A stretch of DNA of 11,523 nt from an uncultured Frankineae bacterium. Its GTDB lineage: Bacteria; Actinomycetota; Actinomycetes; Mycobacteriales; SCTD01. The translations under genes were made by a program, and so were the position numbers. How positions within the stretch are numbered: position 1 is the stretch's first letter; each line of letters opens with the position of its first letter. The DNA lies in contig CADCUE010000117.1 of assembly GCA_902805805.1 (NCBI GenBank), positions 1 through 11,523 on the forward strand, in the 5' to 3' direction. Below are positions 2,912 through 11,523 of the stretch, in pieces. The notes under the pieces are model-generated. The model did not search any database and was not told the DNA's origin. It saw only the letters and a list, made by a program, of their open reading frames with translations.

Positions 2912-2939
2912 CTGACGCCATCCTGCACTTCCGTAAGGT
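2912..2939 (+). promoter_or_regulatory. Candidate sigma-70-type promoter of the heptose operon
   Basis: CTGACG (2912-2917), a 16-nt spacer and TAAGGT (2934-2939) fit the actinomycete pattern TTGAC-N16-18-TANNNT, with one mismatch in the -35 core. Transcription would begin near 2945-2947, leaving a leader of roughly 100 nt before the gmhB start at 3049. It lies in the only gene-free gap ahead of the downstream operon. A start here would exclude the in-frame GTG at 2938 as a translation start. Confidence 0.5.
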
Positions 2940-2977
2940 GCTTGTTTCGTCGGAGACAGCCCGGGGAGACGACGCCC

Positions 2978-3052
2978 ATGCAGCCATCCGCCCCGACGTG
3001 CCCGTGCACCGGGCTGCGGGTCTGCATGCGCGCCTGCGCGGCCGGCCGGTGA
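2978..3052 (+). CDS. Upstream ORF / Cys-rich leader peptide
   Basis: A 24-codon ORF (MQPSAPTC ... CAAGR) with four cysteines, at residues 8, 10, 16 and 20. It has an ATG start with GGGGAG (2963-2968) 9 nt upstream. That is a better ribosome site than anything in front of the next gene. Its TGA stop (3050-3052) overlaps the GTG start of the phosphatase gene (3049-3051) as GTGA, and this tetranucleotide is the loop of a strong hairpin. A role as a leader peptide that feeds ribosomes into gmhB is inferred. No family is recognised, and a chance ORF is possible in such GC-rich DNA, though the start/stop arrangement argues against that. Confidence 0.4.
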   Translation: MQPSAPTCPCTGLRVCMRACAAGR

Positions 3053-3061
3053 CGGCCGGCC
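3040..3061 (+). promoter_or_regulatory. Start-codon hairpin with GUGA tetraloop
   Basis: GGCCGGCCG (3040-3048) is perfectly complementary to CGGCCGGCC (3053-3061), and the 4-nt loop is GTGA (3049-3052). GUGA belongs to the GNRA class of very stable RNA tetraloops. The loop contains both the uORF stop codon and the likely GTG start of gmhB. A ribosome finishing the uORF would melt the 5' arm and reach the start directly, so initiation may depend on uORF translation. Confidence 0.55.
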
Positions 3062-3621
3062 CCGCCGCCGTCCGTCCCTGTGCCGTCCTGTTCGACCGCG
3101 ACGGGACGCTGGTCGTCGACGTGCCCTACAACGGCGACCCGGAGCTGGTGCAGCCGATGGCCGGGGCCCGCGCCGCGCTCGAGCGGCTGCGGAGCGCCGG
3201 AGTGCCCACCGCCGTCGTGTCGAACCAGAGCGGCATCGCCCGGGGTCTGCTCACCCGCGAGCAGGTCGACGCGGTCAACGCGCGGCTGCAGGACCTGGTC
3301 GGCCCGCTCGGCCCGGTCTTCGTCTGCGAGCACGGCCCGGACGACGGCTGCTCCTGCCGCAAGCCGGCGCCCGGGATGGTGCTCGCCGCCGCGCGGGCCC
3401 TGGGTGTGGCACCCGAGACGTGCGTCGTCGTCGGGGACATCGGCGCCGACGTCGGTGCGGCGCTCGCCGCCGGCGCCCGGGCTGTCCTCGTCCCGACACC
3501 GGTCACCCGGCCGGAGGAGGTCGAGCGGGCGCGGCGGGCCGGCGTGCCGGTCGCGTCCGACCTCCGGGCAGCGGTCGCCCTGCTCCTGCCGGACGAGGAC
3601 CCGTCGGAGGAAGGGCCATGA
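3049..3621 (+). CDS. gmhB: GmhB-type D-glycero-D-manno-heptose-1,7-bisphosphate 7-phosphatase (HAD-IIIA)
   Basis: A 190-aa cytoplasmic HAD phosphatase expected to remove the 7-phosphate of heptose 1,7-bisphosphate, the step between the two HldE reactions. The motifs are complete: DRDGT (16-20, nucleophile Asp16 and acid/base Asp18), SNQSGIARG (58-66), and VVVGDIGADV (126-135). A structural zinc loop has Cys93, His95, Cys101 and Cys103 (CEH...CSCRKPAP), as in E. coli GmhB. Histidinol-phosphatase domains are similar, but the heptose-gene neighbours favour GmhB. The GTG at 3049 is preferred because the fold begins ten residues later and the start overlaps the uORF stop. In-frame GTGs at 2998 and 2938 would add unrelated residues, and the latter overlaps the -10 box. 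No Shine-Dalgarno site precedes 3049. ATGA overlap with the next gene. Confidence 0.9.
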   Translation: MTAGPAAVRPCAVLFDRDGTLVVDVPYNGDPELVQPMAGARAALERLRSAGVPTAVVSNQSGIARGLLTREQVDAVNARLQDLVGPLGPVFVCEHGPDDGCSCRKPAPGMVLAAARALGVAPETCVVVGDIGADVGAALAAGARAVLVPTPVTRPEEVERARRAGVPVASDLRAAVALLLPDEDPSEEGP

Positions 3622-4658
3622 CGACCACGCTCGTCGTCCGGCTGGACAGCGACGGGGACGTGCTGCTCGCCGGTCCGGCCGTGCGCGCCGTCGCAGCGGC
3701 CGGCGACCGCGTCGTCCTGCTCGTCGGGCCGCAGGGCGCCGCGGCGGCCCGGCTGCTGCCCGGTGTCGACCAGGTCCTCGTCTGGGCCTGTCCCTGGATC
3801 GTGGCCGATCCCGCCCCGGTCGACCCGGCCGACATCGCCGGGGTCGTCGCCGAGGTGCGCGCCGTGGCCGCCGACCGGGCTCTCGTGCTGACGTCCTTCC
3901 ACCAGAGCCCGCTGCCCACCGCGCTGGTGCTGCGCCTGGCCGGCGTCCCCTGGGTCGGTGCCGTCAGCGAGGACTACCCCGGCTCCCTGCTGGACCTCCG
4001 CCTGCAGCTGCCCGACTCCGGGCTGCACGAGGCGCAGCGCCAGCTGCGACTGGCCGAGGCAGCCGGCTTCGCCCTGCCCGCCGGGGATGCCGCGGGACTG
4101 CAGGTGCGCCGCGACCTGCCGACGACGACGCTGCTGACCGGCGAGGACCCGTACGTCGTCGTGCACCCGGGCGCGTCCGTGCCGGCCCGCGCGCCCGGTC
4201 CGGAGTGGGCCCGAGACCTCGTGCAGGCCCTGCTCGGCGACGGCTGTCGTGTCGTGGTCACGGGAGGCCCCGGCGAGGTCGGCCTCACTGCCGCGGTGGC
4301 CGCGCCCGGAGCGGTCGACCTCGGCGGACGGACCGGTCTGGCCGAGCTGGCCGACGTCCTGGGCCGGGCCGCCGTGGTCGTGGTGGGCAACACCGGGCCC
4401 GCCCACCTGGCTGCCGCCGTCGGGACGCCGGTGGTGTCGCTGTTCGCCCCCGTCGTGCCCGCCGAGCGGTGGCGGCCGTGGCAGGTTCCGCACAGACTGC
4501 TGGGAGACCAGTCCGCTGCGTGCGCGCTCAGCCGGGCCAAGACCTGCCCCGTACCAGGCCATCCGTGCCTCGACGGCGTGCCGGTGACGGCCGCCGTCGA
4601 CGCCGTGCGAGCGTTGGCGCCGTCGCTCGCCCCCCGCCGTACGGCGGCCAACGCATGA
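3618..4658 (+). CDS. Glycosyltransferase family 9 (heptosyltransferase-like)
   Basis: A 346-aa GT-B enzyme of the ADP-heptose:LPS heptosyltransferase family (WaaC/WaaF/RfaF-like). The N-terminal acceptor domain begins MTTTLVVRLDSDGDVLLAGP, the usual GT9 opening (R-x-D/G-x-x-GDVLL-x-x-P). The C-terminal domain has YVVVHPGASVPAR and the nucleotide-sugar signature GNTGPAHLAAAVGTPVVSLF, with Asn258-Thr-Gly and His263. Many LPS enzymes have Asp-Ser-Gly at this place, so Asn-Thr is a variant. A cysteine-containing tail (SRAKTCPVPGHPC) follows. ADP-heptose is the likely donor, given GmhA/HldE/GmhB in the same operon; the acceptor is unknown. ATG at 3618 (GGAAGGG just upstream) overlaps the gmhB stop by 4 bases. 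The next gene starts 10 nt after the stop. Confidence 0.92.
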   Translation: MTTTLVVRLDSDGDVLLAGPAVRAVAAAGDRVVLLVGPQGAAAARLLPGVDQVLVWACPWIVADPAPVDPADIAGVVAEVRAVAADRALVLTSFHQSPLPTALVLRLAGVPWVGAVSEDYPGSLLDLRLQLPDSGLHEAQRQLRLAEAAGFALPAGDAAGLQVRRDLPTTTLLTGEDPYVVVHPGASVPARAPGPEWARDLVQALLGDGCRVVVTGGPGEVGLTAAVAAPGAVDLGGRTGLAELADVLGRAAVVVVGNTGPAHLAAAVGTPVVSLFAPVVPAERWRPWQVPHRLLGDQSAACALSRAKTCPVPGHPCLDGVPVTAAVDAVRALAPSLAPRRTAANA

Positions 4659-4668
4659 GGAGCCTGCT

Positions 4669-5907
4669 GTGAGAGTCGCGATGGTCTCCGAGCACGCCAG
4701 CCCGTTGGCGGTCCTGGGCGGAGTCGACGCGGGCGGCCAGAACGTCCACGTGGCCGCCCTCGCGGAGGGGATGGCCCGGCACGGCGCCGACGTCGTCGTC
4801 CACACCCGCCGGGACGACGTCGCCCTGCGCCGCCGCGTGCGCATGAGCCCCGGGGTCACGGTCGACCACGTGATGGCCGGGCCCCCGCACGCCGTGCCCA
4901 AGGACGACCTGCTGCCCTACATGGACGACTTCGCGGCCGACCTGCACCGGCAGTGGCGGGCCCGGCGTCCCGACGTCGTGCACGCCCACTTCTGGATGAG
5001 CGGCCGGGCTGCGCTGGCCGCCGCCCGGCCGCTCGGCATCCCCGTGGTCCTGACGTTCCACGCCCTCGGCGTCGTCAAGCGACGCCACCAGGGCGAGCGC
5101 GACACCAGCCCGGCGGGTCGGCTCGACGTCGAGTCGGCTCTCGTGCGCGAGGCCGACCGCATCGTGGCCACCTGCACCGACGAGGTCTTCGAGCTGCTCC
5201 GGCTCGGCGGCGACCGCCGGCGCATCTCGGTCGTCCCCTGCGGGGTCGACCTGACGACCTTCCACCCCGGCGTGCAGCCCGAGCCGCGCACCCCAGGACT
5301 GCGGCGCATCGTCTGCGTCGGGCGGCTGGTGGAGCGCAAGGGCGTCGGCAACGCCATCGAGGCGCTCGGACGGCTGCGCGCGGCCGGCGGGCCCGACGCC
5401 GAGCTCGTCGTCGCGGGCGGGCCCGACGCCGCCGAGCTGGACTCCGATCCCGAGGTCGCCCGGCTGCGGGGGCTCGCCGACCGGGCCGGCGTCGCCGACC
5501 GGGTGGTGTTCCGTGGCCGGGTCGGGCGCGAGGACCTGCCGGCGCTGTTCCGCTCGGCCGACCTCGCGGTGTGCGTGCCGTGGTACGAGCCGTTCGGCAT
5601 CGTGCCGCTGGAGGCGATGGCCTGCGGCGTGCCCGTCGTCGCGTCCGCCGTCGGGGGGATCATCGACACCGTCGTGCACGGGCGCACCGGCGTGCACGTC
5701 CCACCGCGCCGACCCGACGTGCTCGCCGAGGCGCTGGGCGACCTGCTGTGCGACGACGAGCGGCTGGCCGCGCTCGGCCGCGCCGGCGCCCGCCGCTCGC
5801 GCGCGAAGTACTCCTGGGACCGCGTGGCGGCGCAGACGCTGCAGTCGTACGAGGACCTGCTCCCCCTGCCCCTGGCCGAACTGCTCGACGAAGAGGTGTC
5901 GTCATGA
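4669..5907 (+). CDS. Glycosyltransferase family 4 (group 1)
   Basis: A 412-aa retaining GT-B glycosyltransferase. The N-terminal glycine-rich donor/acceptor loop reads LGGVDAGGQNVHVAALAEGMARHG, the form shared by sucrose-phosphate-synthase-like and MshA-like enzymes. VVHAHFWMSG follows, then the linker VVPCGVDLTTFHP. The C-terminal Rossmann half has VCVGRLVERKG and the E-x7-E motif EPFGIVPLEAMACG (Glu307 and Glu315), which binds the donor sugar nucleotide. Donor and acceptor cannot be read from sequence. MshA (mycothiol) is an alternative name by similarity, but the heptose operon context argues for glycan assembly. GTG start with AGGAG (4658-4662) 6 nt before it. ATGA overlap with gmhA. Confidence 0.93.
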   Translation: MRVAMVSEHASPLAVLGGVDAGGQNVHVAALAEGMARHGADVVVHTRRDDVALRRRVRMSPGVTVDHVMAGPPHAVPKDDLLPYMDDFAADLHRQWRARRPDVVHAHFWMSGRAALAAARPLGIPVVLTFHALGVVKRRHQGERDTSPAGRLDVESALVREADRIVATCTDEVFELLRLGGDRRRISVVPCGVDLTTFHPGVQPEPRTPGLRRIVCVGRLVERKGVGNAIEALGRLRAAGGPDAELVVAGGPDAAELDSDPEVARLRGLADRAGVADRVVFRGRVGREDLPALFRSADLAVCVPWYEPFGIVPLEAMACGVPVVASAVGGIIDTVVHGRTGVHVPPRRPDVLAEALGDLLCDDERLAALGRAGARRSRAKYSWDRVAAQTLQSYEDLLPLPLAELLDEEVSS

Positions 5908-6560
5908 CCGCTCCCCTGCTCTCCGGCGCCGCGCACGTCCGCGCGCTGCTCGACGCCCTGCCCGCGCTGGACACCGACCGGGTCGACGCCTGGGGGCGTC
6001 ACCTGGCCGCCGTGCTCGTCGGCGGCGGCCGGCTGCTGTGCGCAGGCAACGGCGGCAGCGCCGCGCAGGCCCAGCACCTGACCGCGGAGCTGGTCGGCCG
6101 CTACCGGGACGACCGCCCCGCGCTGTCGGCCCTGGCGCTGCACGCCGAGACGTCCTCGGTCACGGCGATCGCCAACGACTACGGCTACGACAGCGTCTTC
6201 AGCCGCCAGGTGCAGGCCCACGGGCGTCCCGGCGACGTCTTCCTGGGGCTGTCGACCAGCGGCCGCAGCGGCAACGTCCTCGCCGCGATGCAGGCCGCCC
6301 GCGACGGCGGGCTCACCGTCTGGGCGCTCACCGGCAACGGTCCCAACGCGATGACCGAGGCGGCGGACGACGCGATCGCGGTCGCCGCGCCGGCCACCGC
6401 CACGGTGCAGGAGATCCACCAGGTGGCCGTGCACCTGCTCTGCGCCGCCGTCGACCTCCAGGTCGGGGCCGACCACGCCAGCAGCGCGACCTACGACGGC
6501 AGCGAGCCCGCCACGACCTCGCCCGCCGAGGCCTTCGCGCCCTCCCCGGCGGGCTCGTGA
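5904..6560 (+). CDS. gmhA: Sedoheptulose-7-phosphate isomerase (phosphoheptose isomerase)
   Basis: A 218-aa SIS-domain protein catalysing the first committed step, sedoheptulose 7-phosphate to D-glycero-D-manno-heptose 7-phosphate. Visible GmhA hallmarks: CAGNGGSAAQAQHLTAELVGRY (46-67, with catalytic-type Glu62), ETSSVTAIANDYGYDSVFSRQV (82-103), the phosphate-binding STSGRSGNV (117-125) and EIHQVAVHLLC (170-180, His172). These distinguish it from GlmS, KdsD or MurQ SIS proteins. It is probably a cytoplasmic tetramer. Residues about 189-218 form an Ala/Ser/Pro/Glu-rich tail beyond the usual end of the family, probably disordered. ATG at 5904 overlaps the GT4 stop (ATGA), and its own stop overlaps the hldE start (GTGA). 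Confidence 0.95.
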   Translation: MTAPLLSGAAHVRALLDALPALDTDRVDAWGRHLAAVLVGGGRLLCAGNGGSAAQAQHLTAELVGRYRDDRPALSALALHAETSSVTAIANDYGYDSVFSRQVQAHGRPGDVFLGLSTSGRSGNVLAAMQAARDGGLTVWALTGNGPNAMTEAADDAIAVAAPATATVQEIHQVAVHLLCAAVDLQVGADHASSATYDGSEPATTSPAEAFAPSPAGS

Positions 6561-7930
6561 GCCTCGTCGTCGTCGGCGACGCGCTGCTCGACCGCGACCT
6601 GACCGGGACCGTCGACCGGCTCTGCCCCGACGCCCCCGTCCCCGTCGTCGACTCCCCCGTCGACGTCCCGCGACCCGGCGGTGCCGGGCTGGCCGCCCTG
6701 CTCGCCGCGGCGGACGGTCGCGACGTCGTGCTCGTCACGGCGCTCGCGCAGGACCCGCCGGGTCGCGAGCTGGCCGGCCTGCTCGCCCAGGCCGGCGTAC
6801 GGGTCGTCGACCTCGGGCTCGACGGCGCGACGCCGGAGAAGGTCCGGGTCCGCAGCTCCGGTCGCTCCCTGCTCCGGCTGGACCGCGGCGGGGCGGGCGG
6901 CGCCGTGGGTCCGCTCACCGCCGAGGCGGCGGCTGTCCTGGCCGACGCCGACGCCGTCCTCGTGGCCGACTACGGCCGCGGGGTCGCTTCCGCCCCCGGC
7001 ATGCGCGGGGCGCTGACGGCGGCCGCCGCCGGCCGGGCCCCCGTCGTCTGGGACCCGCACCCGCGGGGCGACGAGCCGGTCGCCGGCGTCACCCTCGCGA
7101 CGCCGAACGGCGCGGAAGCACGGCACTTCGCGCCCGGGCACGACGGCGCGCTGCTGACCGCGACGACGGCCCGCGCGCGTGAGCTCGCCGGGCGCTGGTC
7201 GGCCACCGCCGTGTCGGTCACCCTGTCGGGCCGCGGGGCGCTGCTCGTCAGCGGCGAGGGCGCCCCCTCGGTCGTGCCCGCACCCGACGTGCCCTGCCCG
7301 GACCCGTGCGGAGCCGGGGACCGGTTCGCCTCCACGGCCGCCGGCCTGCTCGCCGACGGGGCCCTGCCGTCCGAGGCCGTCGCCGGGGCCGTGGCGTCGG
7401 CGAGCGCCTTCGTCGCCGCCGGCGGCGCCGCGTCCGTGCGCGTCGGCCGGCCCTCCCCCTCCGGCGGTCCCACCTCCGAGAGCGCGGAGCAGGTGGTGCA
7501 GCGCGTCCGCGCCGCCGGCGGCACGGTCGTCGCGACCGGCGGCTGCTTCGACCTGCTGCACGCCGGGCACGTCGCGGTGCTGCAGCAGGCCCGAGCGCTC
7601 GGCGACTGCCTCGTCGTGCTGCTCAACTCCGACGCGTCGGTCGGCCGGCTCAAGGGCACGTCGCGTCCGCTGCAGTCCGAGGTCGACCGCGCGACCGTGC
7701 TGCGCGCGCTCGGCTCCGTCGACGCGGTCGTCGTCTTCGACGAGGACACCCCCGTGGCCGCGCTCGAGCGGCTGCGACCCGACGTCTGGGCCAAGGGCGG
7801 CGACTACGCCCTGACCGACCTGCCCGAGGCCCCCGTCCTCGGCGGGTGGGGCGGCCAGGCGGTCGTCCTGCCCTACCTGACCGGCAAGTCCACCACCTCT
7901 CTCATCCAGGAAGCAGCCACCCGTGCCTAG
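6557..7930 (+). CDS. hldE: Bifunctional heptose-7-phosphate kinase / heptose-1-phosphate adenylyltransferase
   Basis: A 457-aa two-domain enzyme (E. coli HldE is 477 aa, from memory). Residues 1-300 form a PfkB/ribokinase kinase domain making heptose 1,7-bisphosphate: VVVGDALLDRD (4-14), PDAPVPVV (24-31), LLRLD (105-109), VADYGRG, ATPNGAE and the catalytic GAGD (252-255, Asp255). Residues 320-457 form a cytidylyltransferase-like domain making ADP-heptose: TGGCFDLLHAGHV (327-339, HxGH), LNSDASVGRLKG (356-367), WAKGGDY (411-417) and GKSTTSLI. Compared with E. coli, GGAANVA is GGAGLAA here (Asn to Leu45) and IDPKG is WDPHPRG (Lys to His168). GTG start overlaps gmhA's stop; its end overlaps the SDR start by 8 bases. 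Confidence 0.95.
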   Translation: MSLVVVGDALLDRDLTGTVDRLCPDAPVPVVDSPVDVPRPGGAGLAALLAAADGRDVVLVTALAQDPPGRELAGLLAQAGVRVVDLGLDGATPEKVRVRSSGRSLLRLDRGGAGGAVGPLTAEAAAVLADADAVLVADYGRGVASAPGMRGALTAAAAGRAPVVWDPHPRGDEPVAGVTLATPNGAEARHFAPGHDGALLTATTARARELAGRWSATAVSVTLSGRGALLVSGEGAPSVVPAPDVPCPDPCGAGDRFASTAAGLLADGALPSEAVAGAVASASAFVAAGGAASVRVGRPSPSGGPTSESAEQVVQRVRAAGGTVVATGGCFDLLHAGHVAVLQQARALGDCLVVLLNSDASVGRLKGTSRPLQSEVDRATVLRALGSVDAVVVFDEDTPVAALERLRPDVWAKGGDYALTDLPEAPVLGGWGGQAVVLPYLTGKSTTSLIQEAATRA

Positions 7931-8627
7931 CTCTCGCCCTGCCCTCGGCACCGTCCTGATCACCGGCGCCGCGAGCGGTCTCGGCGCCGCGACCGTCGCC
8001 GCCGTGCGCGAGGCCGGCGGGCGACCGCTCGGCCTCGACCGCGTCCCCGTCGACGGCGTCCCGCACGAGATCGTCGACCTGTCCGACACCCGCGCCGCCG
8101 AGCAGGCCGTGCGCCGGCTCGTCGACGGCGCGGGCGGCACGCTCGACGCCGTGGTCACCGCGGCCGGCATGGACTTCCCGGCGCCGTTCGAGAAGCTCGA
8201 CGGCGCCGACTGGGACCGCATCGTCATGGTCAACCTGCTCGGCACGGCGGCGACCGTCCGGGCGGCGATGCCGTACCTGCGGCGCAGCGAGAACCCCCGC
8301 GTCGTCACCGTCTCCTCGACGCTGGGCCACCGGGTCTTCGGCGACGCGACCGCCTACACGGCCAGCAAGTTCGGCGTCGTCGGCTTCACCCGCGGGCTGC
8401 AGGCCGAGCTCAAGGGCGAGGTGGGTGTCACCCTGCTGACCCCGGGCGGCATGCACACCAGCTTCTTCGACGACCGCGACGACCAGTACAAGCCCGGTCC
8501 GGACGCCAGGCTCAACCGCGCCGAGGACGTCGCGCTGAACGTCGTCCACGTCCTGACCCAGCCGCCCGGCTGCCACGTCTACGAGCTGGTCGTGGCGTCG
8601 ATGTGGGAAGACAGCTGGCCGGCGTGA
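7923..8627 (+). CDS. Classical SDR family oxidoreductase
   Basis: A 234-aa NAD(P)-dependent short-chain dehydrogenase. The Rossmann cofactor motif is TGAASGLG (14-21). AAG (80-82) replaces the usual NNAG core. VNLLG gives Asn104, SS (131-132) the catalytic serine, and YTASK the Tyr145/Lys149 pair. The length is that of a one-domain classical SDR. It lacks the C-terminal substrate domain of extended SDRs such as the ADP-heptose epimerase HldD, so it should not be taken as HldD. In this operon it may oxidise, reduce or epimerise a sugar or glycan intermediate; the substrate is unknown. GTG at 7923 has AGGAAG (7908-7913) upstream, inside the end of hldE. The stop overlaps the next start as GTGA. 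Confidence 0.93.
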   Translation: MPSSRPALGTVLITGAASGLGAATVAAVREAGGRPLGLDRVPVDGVPHEIVDLSDTRAAEQAVRRLVDGAGGTLDAVVTAAGMDFPAPFEKLDGADWDRIVMVNLLGTAATVRAAMPYLRRSENPRVVTVSSTLGHRVFGDATAYTASKFGVVGFTRGLQAELKGEVGVTLLTPGGMHTSFFDDRDDQYKPGPDARLNRAEDVALNVVHVLTQPPGCHVYELVVASMWEDSWPA

Positions 8628-10315
8628 GCACCGTCCTCGGCATCAACGCCGTCTTCCACGACCCCGCCGCCGCGCTCGTCGTCGACGGGGTCACCGTCGC
8701 CGCCGTCGAGGAGGAGCGCTTCAACCGGCGCAAGCACGGCCACGACAACGTGCCGTTCGCCGCGTGGGAGGTCCCGGCGCAGGCGGCCCGGTGGTGCCTC
8801 GCCTCGGCCGGCCTGTCCCCCGAGGACCTGGACGCGGTCGCCTACTCCTACGACCCGGCGCTGTGCCCCCCGATCGAGGGGATGACCCTCGACCGGGTCA
8901 TGACCGACGGCTGGGAGCCGATGCGCACGCTGTACGCGCAGCGCGCGCCGCTGTTCCTGCGCACCGCCCTGCCCGGGCTCGACCCGGGCATCGTCCGGTT
9001 CGTCCCGCACCACGTGGCGCACGCCGCCTCGGCCTACCTCGCCGCCCCGCACGCCGACAGCGCCGTCATGACGCTGGACGGCCGCGGCGAGCGCACGTCC
9101 TACCTCGCCGGGCGGGTCCGCGGCGGTGACCTCGAGATCCTGGCGCAGCAGCCGCTGCCGTCGTCGCTGGGCCTGCTGTACGAGGAGGTCACCGAGCACC
9201 TCGGCTTCCGGCGCAGCAGCGACGAGTACAAGGTGATGGCGCTCGCGTCGTACGGCACGCCGCGGTGGCTGGACGAGTTCCGGTCGCTCGTCCGGACGAC
9301 CGGCGACGGCGGCTTCGTCGTCGAGCCGATCGAGTGGGCGTCGTACGTCAAGCGCGGCGCCGGTGCCTTCGACGACGTGGACTCCGACTCCGCCGACCTC
9401 GCCTCGACCGTCCAGATCCGCCTGCAGGAGGTCCTGCTCGAGCTGGCCGGCTGGCTGCACGGCCGGACCGGCGACCGGGTGCTCACCCTGGCCGGTGGCG
9501 TCGCCCTGAACTGCGTGGCCAACAGCGTGCTGTGGGACGCCAGCCCGTTCGAGGAGATCTGGGTCCAGCCGGCGTCCGGCGACTCCGGCACGGCGCTGGG
9601 CGGCGCGATGTACGTGGCGCACGCCCTCGGCGACGACGTGCAGCCGATGCGCACCGCGGCGCTGGGCCGGTCCTGGTCCGACGACGAGCTCGAGCAGTGG
9701 CTGATCACGGCGCAGGTGCCGTACACCCGGCCCGACGACATCGCCGAGGAGGTCGCGCAGTGCCTCGCCGACGACGGCGTGGTCGCGTGGTTCCAGGGAC
9801 GGGCCGAGTACGGTCCCCGTGCGCTCGGGCACCGCTCGCTGCTGGCGCACCCGGGCTACGCCAAGAACCTCGAGCGCATGAACGACGTCAAGGGTCGTGA
9901 GCAGTTCCGGCCCGTCGCGCCGATGGTGCTGCTCGACCGCGCGCACGAGGTCTTCATCGGACCGATCCCGTCGCCCTACATGCTGTTCACGCACGGGGTG
10001 CAGCCGGCGTGGAGGGACCGGATCCCCGTCGTCACGCACGTCGACGGCAGCGCCCGCATCCAGACGGTCGACCCGGCCGACGAGCCGCTCGTCGCCCGGA
10101 TGCTGGAGCGCTTCGCGGCGAAGACCGGCATCCCGGTCGTCGTCAACACCTCGCTCAACACCGCCGGCCGGCCCATCGTCGACGACCCGCGCGACGCGCT
10201 GGAGTGCTTCGGGTCCGGGCCGGTCGACCTGCTGGCGCTCGGCCCGTTCGCCGTCCGCCGGGCACGTCCGACGACCGGCGCGGCGGAGGTGGCCGCAGCG
10301 CAGGACATGGGGTGA
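8624..10315 (+). CDS. NodU/CmcH-type O-carbamoyltransferase
   Basis: A 563-aa enzyme of the carbamoyltransferase family (NodU, CmcH, TobZ), which uses carbamoyl phosphate and ATP to put a carbamoyl group on a hydroxyl, often of a sugar. The N-terminal Kae1-like, actin-fold domain starts STVLGINAVFHDPAAALV and contains VEEERFNRRKHG, the metal-binding HHVAHA (His129, His130, His133), LDGRGE and AGGVALNCVANS. The C-terminal domain has GRAEYGPRALGHRSLLA (Glu395, Arg399), MNDVKGREQFRPVAP and VVVNTSLNTAGRPIV. All family landmarks are present and the length is normal. GTG at 8624 overlaps the SDR stop. An upstream in-frame GTG (8603) would add only seven residues and lacks support. The likely substrate is the sugar or glycan made by this operon, which is an inference. 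Confidence 0.94.
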   Translation: MSTVLGINAVFHDPAAALVVDGVTVAAVEEERFNRRKHGHDNVPFAAWEVPAQAARWCLASAGLSPEDLDAVAYSYDPALCPPIEGMTLDRVMTDGWEPMRTLYAQRAPLFLRTALPGLDPGIVRFVPHHVAHAASAYLAAPHADSAVMTLDGRGERTSYLAGRVRGGDLEILAQQPLPSSLGLLYEEVTEHLGFRRSSDEYKVMALASYGTPRWLDEFRSLVRTTGDGGFVVEPIEWASYVKRGAGAFDDVDSDSADLASTVQIRLQEVLLELAGWLHGRTGDRVLTLAGGVALNCVANSVLWDASPFEEIWVQPASGDSGTALGGAMYVAHALGDDVQPMRTAALGRSWSDDELEQWLITAQVPYTRPDDIAEEVAQCLADDGVVAWFQGRAEYGPRALGHRSLLAHPGYAKNLERMNDVKGREQFRPVAPMVLLDRAHEVFIGPIPSPYMLFTHGVQPAWRDRIPVVTHVDGSARIQTVDPADEPLVARMLERFAAKTGIPVVVNTSLNTAGRPIVDDPRDALECFGSGPVDLLALGPFAVRRARPTTGAAEVAAAQDMG

Positions 10316-11247
10316 GCGGGACGACCGTCGCGGTCGTCGTCCCGACCGTGGGCCGGCCGTCCCTGCACGCCGCCCTCGCGCCGCTGCTCGGACGGGTCGA
10401 GGTCGTCGTGGTCGACGACCGGCCGTCCGGGGCCGACCTGGTGCTGCCGGACGGCGTGCGCGTCCTGCGCTCCCGGGGCGGCGGGCCCGCGGCCGCCCGC
10501 AACACCGGCTGGCGCGCCACCGACGCCACGTGGGTGGCCTTCCTCGACGACGACGTCCTGCCGCCGGACGACTGGGTCGACCAGCTGCACCGCGACCTGA
10601 CCGCCTGCGGCCCGGACGTCGGGGCCACGCAGGGCCGGATCGTCGTGCCGCTGCCCGACTCCCGTCGGCCGACCGACTGGGAGCGCAGCACCGCCGGCCT
10701 GCAGACGGCGGTGTGGGCGACCGCCGACATGGCCTACCGCCGCGAGGCGCTCGACCAGGTCGGGGGCTTCGACGAGCGGTTCCCGCGGGCCTACCGCGAG
10801 GACGCCGACCTCGGACTGCGCGTGACGTCGGCGGGCTGGCGGATCGTGCGGGGAGCCCGGTCGGTCGACCACCCGGTGCGACCGGCCGGCTGGCGGCAGA
10901 GCATCCGCAGCCAGCGCGGCAACGCCGACGACGTCCTCATGCGGGTGCTGCACGGTCGCGACTGGCGTGCGCGGGCGGCGGTCCCGCCGGGCCGGCGGCC
11001 GTGGCACCTCGCGACGACCCTGTGCCTGCTCGCGGCCGCACACCCCCGGACGCGCACCGTCGGACTGCCGGTCTGGGCCGCCCTGACCGCCGACTTCGCC
11101 CGCCGGCGGATCGTCCCGGGGCCGCGCACGGCCCGCGAGGTGGCGACGATGACCGTGACGTCGGCAGCGATCCCGGTCGCCGCGACGTCCTGGTGGCTCG
11201 CCGGCTGGGCCCGCCTGCCCGCGCAGCTGCGACGGGGCCGCCGGTGA
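10312..11247 (+). CDS. Glycosyltransferase family 2
   Basis: A 311-aa GT-A glycosyltransferase. It opens with VAVVVPTVGRPSLHAAL and VVVVDDRPSG (31-40). AARNTGWRAT (61-70) follows, then VAFLDDDVLPP with the nucleotide/metal-binding DDD at 79-81. The acceptor-side GGFDERFPRAYREDADLGLRV contains the Glu163-Asp164 general-base motif. A hydrophobic stretch near the C-terminus (about 280-299, TMTVTSAAIPVAATSWWLAG) could be a membrane anchor or a surface helix, which would place the enzyme at the inner face of the membrane. Donor and acceptor are unknown. The GTG start overlaps the carbamoyltransferase stop (GTGA), and its TGA overlaps the start of the next GT9 gene the same way. Confidence 0.92.
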   Translation: MSGTTVAVVVPTVGRPSLHAALAPLLGRVEVVVVDDRPSGADLVLPDGVRVLRSRGGGPAAARNTGWRATDATWVAFLDDDVLPPDDWVDQLHRDLTACGPDVGATQGRIVVPLPDSRRPTDWERSTAGLQTAVWATADMAYRREALDQVGGFDERFPRAYREDADLGLRVTSAGWRIVRGARSVDHPVRPAGWRQSIRSQRGNADDVLMRVLHGRDWRARAAVPPGRRPWHLATTLCLLAAAHPRTRTVGLPVWAALTADFARRRIVPGPRTAREVATMTVTSAAIPVAATSWWLAGWARLPAQLRRGRR

Positions 11248-11523
11248 GGGTCGTGGTCCTGCGGGCCCTCGGGCTCGGCGACCTGCTGACTGCCGTGCCG
11301 GCGCTGCGGGCCCTGCGCCGGGCCCGTCCCGACGCCGAGATCGTCCTCGCCATGCCGGCCGGGCTCGCCGACCTCGCCCGGCTGAGCGGCGCGGTCGACG
11401 AGGTCGTCGACACCGCTGCCCTGGCGCCGCTCGAGCGCTCCCTGCACGCCGCCGACCTGGCGGTGAACCTGCACGGCCGCGGGCCGCAGAGCACGGCGCT
11501 GCTGCGGGAGACGGCACCGCAGG
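11244..11523 (+). CDS. Second GT9 heptosyltransferase-like protein (partial, 5' end)
   Basis: The first 93 residues of a gene that runs off the right edge. It opens VRVVVLRALGLGDLLTAVPALRAL, the typical N-terminal GT9 motif (LRALGLGD-LL-x-x-P-AL). Then come PDAEIVLAMPAGLADLARLSGAVDEVVD and DLAVNLHGRGPQST, which match the acceptor half of ADP-heptose:LPS heptosyltransferases. The donor-binding half lies outside the window. It diverges clearly from the first GT9 gene (3618-4658), so the two may add successive residues instead of being a recent duplicate pair. The GTG start overlaps the GT2 stop (GTGA), so the operon continues beyond the window. Confidence 0.9.
   Translation, partial: MRVVVLRALGLGDLLTAVPALRALRRARPDAEIVLAMPAGLADLARLSGAVDEVVDTAALAPLERSLHAADLAVNLHGRGPQSTALLRETAPQ

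Follow-up and report, generated by a model that had tools for sequence, protein, structure and literature searches.

The cwg operon of Streptomyces coelicolor (SCO6179-6190) has been described in print as a cell wall glycan operon, a description that citing papers trace to Hong et al. 2002 (PMC5839063, PMC6767563). The excerpts of these papers on which we rely describe a 12-gene operon that is induced by vancomycin and depends partly on sigma-E (PMC6767563). They list cwgB, cwgC and cwgJ as transferases, cwgD as a dehydratase, cwgE as a heptosyl transferase, cwgG as a glycosyltransferase, cwgH as a phosphoheptose isomerase and cwgI as a bifunctional synthase/transferase (PMC5839063). Here we analyze a stretch of 11,523 nucleotides from an uncultured Frankineae bacterium (GenBank GCA_902805805.1, contig CADCUE010000117.1), termed the window in the following. 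It contains a nine-gene cassette with enzymes for adenosine diphosphate heptose (ADP-heptose) and for glycan assembly. Judged from sequence comparison, the cassette is a rearranged, Frankiales-like homologue of the cwg operon and belongs to a known, under-studied kind. We assign a probability of about 0.68 to the reading that this homologue makes an envelope oligosaccharide containing heptose.

Other described heptose systems resemble the cassette in parts. The inner core of the Pseudomonas lipopolysaccharide (LPS) likewise involves ADP-heptose enzymes (HldE, GmhA, GmhB), two glycosyltransferases of family GT9 (WaaC, WaaF) and a carbamoyltransferase. The excerpt consulted places the carbamoyl group on HepII and assigns it to the putative carbamoyltransferase WapO (PMC8005017), which is likened to the window enzyme by description only. 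For septacidin of Streptomyces fimbriatus, a passage in PMC11461863 names nucleoside diphosphate heptose (NDP-heptose), in this case ADP-heptose, as the precursor. By their titles, a paper from 2022 deals with NDP-heptose synthetases of actinobacteria and another with the heptoses of septacidin and hygromycin B. These systems, compared here by mentions and titles, share with the cassette the NDP-heptose from actinobacteria. Unlike the tridomain synthetases, GmhA and HldE of the window are separate proteins, and they are part of a glycan cassette without scaffold genes. The novelty implied by the initial annotation does not stand beside the 2002 origin of cwg, the report on septacidin and the title from 2022. 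No paper joining cwg, heptose and Streptomyces was found in the literature searched.

The cassette and its counterpart in Streptomyces

The nine genes form one run on the + strand from about position 3049 to the end of the window. Gene starts were set by codon use. The predicted functions and the corresponding cwg slots are as follows.

3049..3621, + strand, GmhB-like D,D-heptose 1,7-bisphosphate phosphatase (cwgD slot); best NCBIfam match PRK08942 (GmhB), PDB relatives 3l8h and 4pnh
3618..4658, + strand, GT9a, heptosyltransferase-type glycosyltransferase (cwgE slot)
4669..5907, + strand, GT4 glycosyltransferase of the MshA / sucrose-phosphate-synthase kind (cwgG slot); Pfam glycosyltransferase 1 and 4 domains
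5904..6560, + strand, GmhA sedoheptulose 7-phosphate isomerase (cwgH slot); PF13580, TIGR00441, PDB 1x92
6557..7930, + strand, HldE heptose 7-phosphate kinase / heptose 1-phosphate adenylyltransferase (cwgI slot); PfkB, CTP_transf_like, TIGR02199
7923..8627, + strand, classical short-chain dehydrogenase (SDR), not HldD-like; PF00106
8624..10315, + strand, O-carbamoyltransferase of the NodU/TobZ type (cwgB slot); PF02543, PF16861, TobZ
10312..11247, + strand, GT2 glycosyltransferase (cwgC slot); PF00535
11244..11523, + strand, GT9b, second heptosyltransferase-type gene (cwgJ slot), cut by the window end; TIGR02193

The initial annotation had described GmhA, HldE and GmhB as interleaved with two GT9 genes, a GT4, a GT2, an SDR and a carbamoyltransferase, and all of them are present in this run. 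Its count of seven overlapping junctions out of eight is also correct: six overlap by 4 bases and HldE/SDR by 8 bases, and only GT9a and GT4 are separated, by a 10-base gap. The start of GmhB is uncertain, since codon use favors GTG at 3049 and the first listed start codon lies at 2938; position 2912 precedes both. GmhA, HldE and GmhB had been called intact. The eight complete genes have clear Pfam domains; GT2 among them matches PF00535 with 47 bits and the MftF model with 88 bits (cut-off 280). GT9b, a fragment of 94 aa without a Pfam match (TIGR02193, 28 bits), cannot be described as intact. A complete GT9b homologue in a related locus (L001:14604-15479) matches Glyco_transf_9 (PF01075) with 89 bits.

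The Streptomyces locus L066 provides the link to cwg. It contains 12 genes in the order UXS, carbamoyltransferase, GT2, GmhB, GT9a, X3, GT4, GmhA, HldE, GT9b, GT2, GT2, and the eight published cwg descriptions match it slot by slot; UXS corresponds to cwgA and X3, an extra GT4-type glycosyltransferase, to cwgF. Tblastn searches gave this gene order for two further loci as well (L104 and L108). The window shares with the cwg operon GmhA, HldE, the GmhB-like phosphatase, two GT9, GT4, GT2 and the carbamoyltransferase, so that all functions by which we compared gene content are present, with GT9b cut by the window end. The core run GmhB-GT9a-GT4-GmhA-HldE is found in this order, with X3 not in the run. 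In contrast to cwg, the pair carbamoyltransferase-GT2 is located behind HldE-SDR and not in front, the SDR is added, and cwgF and cwgA were not found within the window, which ends inside GT9b. The front position of UXS-carbamoyltransferase-GT2 is a feature of the Streptomyces lineage that varies among relatives; in the window as well as in L001 and L006 carbamoyltransferase-GT2 follows the SDR. We therefore speak of a rearranged homologue and not of the cwg operon itself.

All three enzymes of the ADP-heptose pathway are present with their motifs, and their activity is predicted. GmhA matches PF13580 with 92 bits and the phosphoheptose isomerase 1x92 with 145 bits, and it retains H..E and Q-E-x-H in the alignment to 1x92. 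HldE has PfkB and CTP_transf_like domains with the motifs GAGD and HAGH. The closest PDB relatives of GmhB are 3l8h (81 bits) and the heptose bisphosphate phosphatase 4pnh (79 bits), and D-x-D and C-x-H...C-x-C are retained in the 3l8h alignment. We take HAGH and GAGD of HldE, H..E and Q-E-x-H of GmhA, and D-x-D and the cysteine loop of GmhB to be catalytic or metal-binding residues. The curated NCBIfam cut-off was passed only by the adenylyltransferase domain of HldE, and barely (TIGR02199, 181.6 versus 181.5 bits). GmhA (TIGR00441, 175 versus 209 bits), the kinase domain of HldE (127 versus 345 bits) and GmhB (PRK08942, 117 versus 178 bits) remained below. With cut-offs mostly unmet, the assignments are made because of Pfam matches, PDB relatives, motifs and genomic context. 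The signature of the promiscuous HENase STTR5, an Arg at position 5 of (F/L)XXGRSTT, was not found in the window HldE, which reads YLTGKSTT. Among 93 HldE-type proteins this position is R in 37, H in 35, L in one and K in one, and the motif was not found in 19.

The combination indicative of LPS core biosynthesis, HldD epimerase together with LpxC, was not found in 38 HldE-bearing relative genomes. HldD exceeded its cut-off in none of them (best 139.9 of 274.6 bits; all 38 gave weak epimerase matches), and two of 14 control genomes were above the cut-off. LpxC was likewise found in none of the 38, which distinguishes the cassette from the Pseudomonas system and agrees with the earlier statement that actinomycetes lack LPS. 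Both results argue for a D,D-heptose outside LPS. Two proteins considered as substitutes for HldD, that is as C6 epimerase, are poor candidates: the SDR of the window belongs to the classical short type, and the nearest match to cwgA is UDP-glucuronic acid decarboxylase 1 (312 bits).

Distribution among Actinomycetota

Two sets of genomes were used. A single scan of named genomes with HldE yielded 227 relatives, the best 80 of which are termed the named loci; the survey sample consists of 396 Actinomycetota genomes, drawn evenly. The codon-usage gene caller often merges GmhB and GT2; most counts were therefore obtained by tblastn.

The named loci include Geodermatophilaceae, Streptomyces, Curtobacterium, Nocardioides, Cellulomonas, Jiangella and Actinomadura as well as metagenome-assembled genomes (MAGs) of Thermoleophilia and Acidimicrobiia. 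The nearest named relatives are MAGs. The 'uncultured Frankineae' locus L019, with 80-95% protein identity, matches the window in the order topoisomerase IB, GmhB, GT9a, GT4, GmhA, HldE, and the 'Frankiales bacterium' loci L001 (70-85%) and L006 share the gene order of the window. For the cassette genes comparable with L019, L001 and L006, dN/dS values of 0.08-0.38 were found without internal stops; in this comparison L019 ends inside HldE and GT9b was left out. Together with the recurrence across the phylum, these values indicate that the cassette is more than a chance assembly.

GmhB, GT9a, GT4, GmhA and HldE are all present in 75 of the 80 named loci. The other five comprise a 5.8-kb contig (L042) and four loci without one to four of the five genes (L030, L050, L058 and L073). 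The 21-kb locus L030 from Streptomyces griseomycini contains UXS, carbamoyltransferase, GT2 and HldE, with no matches to GmhB, GT9a, GT4 and GmhA, which may reflect a deletion or a gap in the assembly. The remaining genes are more variable: GT2 occurs in 57 of the 80 loci, the SDR in 33 (31 of these with at least 150 bits) and the carbamoyltransferase in 27. X3 was called in 75 loci, directly before GT4 in 68 of these. In the other seven (L001, L003, L006, L008, L009, L012 and L073) it is located elsewhere, in L001 and L006 on the opposite strand adjoining the cassette. The predicted model of X3 (pLDDT 91.4) resembles BshA and GlgM.

In the survey sample, TIGR02199 matched 123 of the 396 genomes at E 0.001, with 47 over the cut-off. 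At a threshold of at least 175 bits, 58 matches were obtained in 49 genomes; 57 of them lie in 56 fetched regions and the other one in L066. At least seven of the nine cassette genes were found per locus in 31 of these 49 genomes, four to six in 6 and fewer than four in 12, some of these on short contigs (tblastn, E 1e-15). The neighborhood comparison that had been proposed thus revealed conservation well beyond this genome. Among the 31 genomes, 27 contain the carbamoyltransferase, 27 X3, 26 an SDR and 18 the extra GT2, and in 11 the locus includes a UXS homologue; four have a more distant HldE (38-41%). The inter-locus distances of the eight partner genes track those of HldE (Mantel r 0.79-0.96 with 26-78 loci; 0 of 999 permutations each). 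These correlations show shared inheritance and in part mirror the kinship of the species.

The predicted product and alternative products

In the proposed pathway, GmhA would convert sedoheptulose 7-phosphate to D,D-heptose 7-phosphate, the C1 of which would be phosphorylated by HldE before GmhB removes the 7-phosphate. The sugar probably stays in the D,D form, because HldD is missing in the relatives. GT9b, and possibly GT9a, would then attach the heptose to an acceptor assembled by GT4, GT2 and, in relatives, X3/cwgF. Xylose may be added in those relatives that contain the UDP-glucuronate decarboxylase cwgA, and the carbamoyltransferase would cap a hydroxyl. The oligosaccharide would be made in the cytoplasm, exported by proteins encoded elsewhere and contribute to the integrity of the envelope. 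Its location is probably at the surface, by analogy with the regulation of the Streptomyces operon.

The fold of GT9a resembles WaaF and WaaC. GT9a reads NTGP in 75 of 78 proteins and GT9b reads DTG in 68 of 70. In an alignment of 24 GT9a sequences, three cysteines of the C-terminal portion were also invariant. The GT9 enzymes with an established function act, to our knowledge, in LPS core assembly or in protein glycosylation. Heptosylation of cytoplasmic proteins by the two GT9 enzymes, as carried out by Aah and TibC, would be an alternative, which we regard as very improbable.

Another alternative is a soluble cytoplasmic oligosaccharide or glycoside, serving as storage compound, protectant or thiol-like cofactor. 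The cassette enzymes of the window look soluble (the highest mean hydropathy over 19 residues is 1.81), and no exporter is present in the cassette. The best PDB relatives of GT4 are the sucrose-phosphate synthase 6kih (211 bits) and 3c4q/3c48 (175 bits; 3c48 is MshA); the MshA model itself is matched with 265 bits at a cut-off of 462.5. Both sucrose-phosphate synthase and MshA act on small soluble acceptors. The known roles of GT9 enzymes in LPS core and protein glycosylation speak against a cytoplasmic product, as does the control by sigma-E and vancomycin in S. coelicolor as far as it is described in PMC6767563. We therefore consider such a product unlikely and prefer the envelope oligosaccharide.

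The carbamoyltransferase contains PF02543 and PF16861 and aligns over both domains with TobZ (297 bits). Its solved relatives, among them TobZ, GdmN and the novobiocin enzyme, are tailoring enzymes of antibiotics, which favors a secreted specialized metabolite with an ADP-heptose-derived sugar similar to septacidin or hygromycin B. The precursor of septacidin in S. fimbriatus, as mentioned in PMC11461863, points in the same direction. So does the cassette, in which no envelope export gene was seen; an MFS family occurs nearby in seven of the 80 named loci, all of them from Streptomyces. On the other hand, the cassette revealed no gene for the synthesis of a scaffold, and the flanks, most of them unannotated, vary by lineage. 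The cassette is inherited largely as a unit across the phylum (Mantel r up to 0.96, kinship included), and its Streptomyces homologue belongs to an envelope-stress regulon according to the excerpt of PMC6767563. There is, in our estimate, little chance that the product is such a metabolite. The initial annotation had left the choice between a dedicated heptose glycan of the cell surface and a secondary metabolite; the glycan matches the description of S. coelicolor cwg in the excerpts available, whereas the metabolite fits a stable, phylum-wide cassette less well.

A close relative of the carbamoyltransferase (62-74% identity; next relative at 47%) was found in 34 of the 396 survey genomes. 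Of these, 29 are among the 49 HldE-bearing genomes, with 4.2 expected (hypergeometric P 7e-26, uncorrected for kinship); in G216 and G327 the two genes are on different contigs. Five genomes contain the carbamoyltransferase without HldE. Four of them meet a contig end near carbamoyltransferase-GT2 and are thus uninformative. The fifth, G203, keeps only UXS-carbamoyltransferase-GT2 on an 8-Mb contig (L137, about 7276-11375), followed by other genes, and no HldE match was found in the genome. Carbamoyltransferase-GT2 can therefore persist without heptose genes, and G203 is a natural remnant that could reveal the role of this pair in the absence of heptose.

Several findings weigh against a carbamoylated heptose glycan related to cwg. 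Most of the heptose-enzyme models fall short of their curated cut-offs, and NTGP in GT9a suggests that its donor may not be ADP-heptose. L030 and L050 retain HldE without GmhB, GT9a, GT4 and GmhA. The arrangement in G203 implies that carbamoylation need not target heptose, and the carbamoyltransferase was not found in 53 of the 80 named loci; for both reasons a firm claim of a carbamoyl-heptose was rejected. The match to cwg is based on gene order and published annotation, and L066 is the sole sequence among 81 in which the gene caller recovered the 12-gene order exactly. Upstream of 72 operon heads including the window, the sigma-E consensus (AAC, spacer, GTC) gave no strict match (0.7 expected) and three loose matches (4.3 expected) in a scan that had no positive control and was weak, since the true operon head was missed in some cases when genes were called. 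With a wider pattern, one match each was obtained in three of ten named Streptomyces loci, at three different distances, and none in seven; three other loci with a comparable gene arrangement had no usable sequence upstream. Among the genes of the window and ten annotated cassette and neighbor proteins, we found no flippase, polymerase, ligase or lipid-carrier transferase, most flanks being unannotated, and the sole transporter among the annotated neighbors is the Streptomyces MFS protein mentioned above.

The comparison yields a chemical prediction for the envelope oligosaccharide: D,D-manno-heptose, which may be carbamoylated and, in certain lineages, accompanied by xylose, in bacteria without LPS. 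What makes the locus interesting is that this prediction offers a direct chemical test for the product of cwg, a long-standing question. Tentatively, and with clearly less confidence than for an envelope oligosaccharide containing heptose in general, we suggest that many Actinomycetota may use the conserved, soluble cwg cassette to build a carbamoylated D,D-heptose oligosaccharide of the envelope, an LPS-core-like glycan without LPS, against cell-wall stress. If true, soil actinomycetes and antibiotic producers would possess an envelope component that has gone unrecognized, and the occurrence of ADP-heptose enzymes outside Gram-negatives would in part be explained. The initial annotation had also mentioned that ADP-heptose is an agonist of the ALPK1 pathway; nothing in the data ties the operon to ALPK1, and agonism as its function was set aside.

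Flanking genes and lineage-specific additions

A second type of cassette occurs in other Actinomycetota loci (L090, L100, L102, L113, L115 and L117). Here an HldE with 37-41% identity adjoins GT9a, GT9b and mostly X3 and GT4 homologues, with no matches to the carbamoyltransferase or GT2. In several Curtobacterium loci (L024, L031, L041 and others), the region immediately downstream of the cassette, at about 12200-16500, contains a second HldE-type gene that is more distant (35-51%), and in L024 a third GT9 as well.

Upstream of the cassette, the window encodes a DNA topoisomerase IB (1824-2888) and three small genes. A topoisomerase IB gene is also found near the cassette in L004, L019, L050, L129, L130, L132 and L136, which belong to several lineages; this may be due to chance or kinship. 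Next to GT9b, 28 loci share a gene with a median length of 544 aa that is encoded on the opposite strand; most or all of these loci are from Geodermatophilaceae. For the copy in L010 (12397-13983), Pfam gave no match at E 0.001. A gene similar to polysaccharide pyruvyltransferases is located near the cassette in L066, L021, L032 and L060. In L066 it matches PF04230 with 34 bits and is encoded on the minus strand at 723-1565, divergent to UXS.

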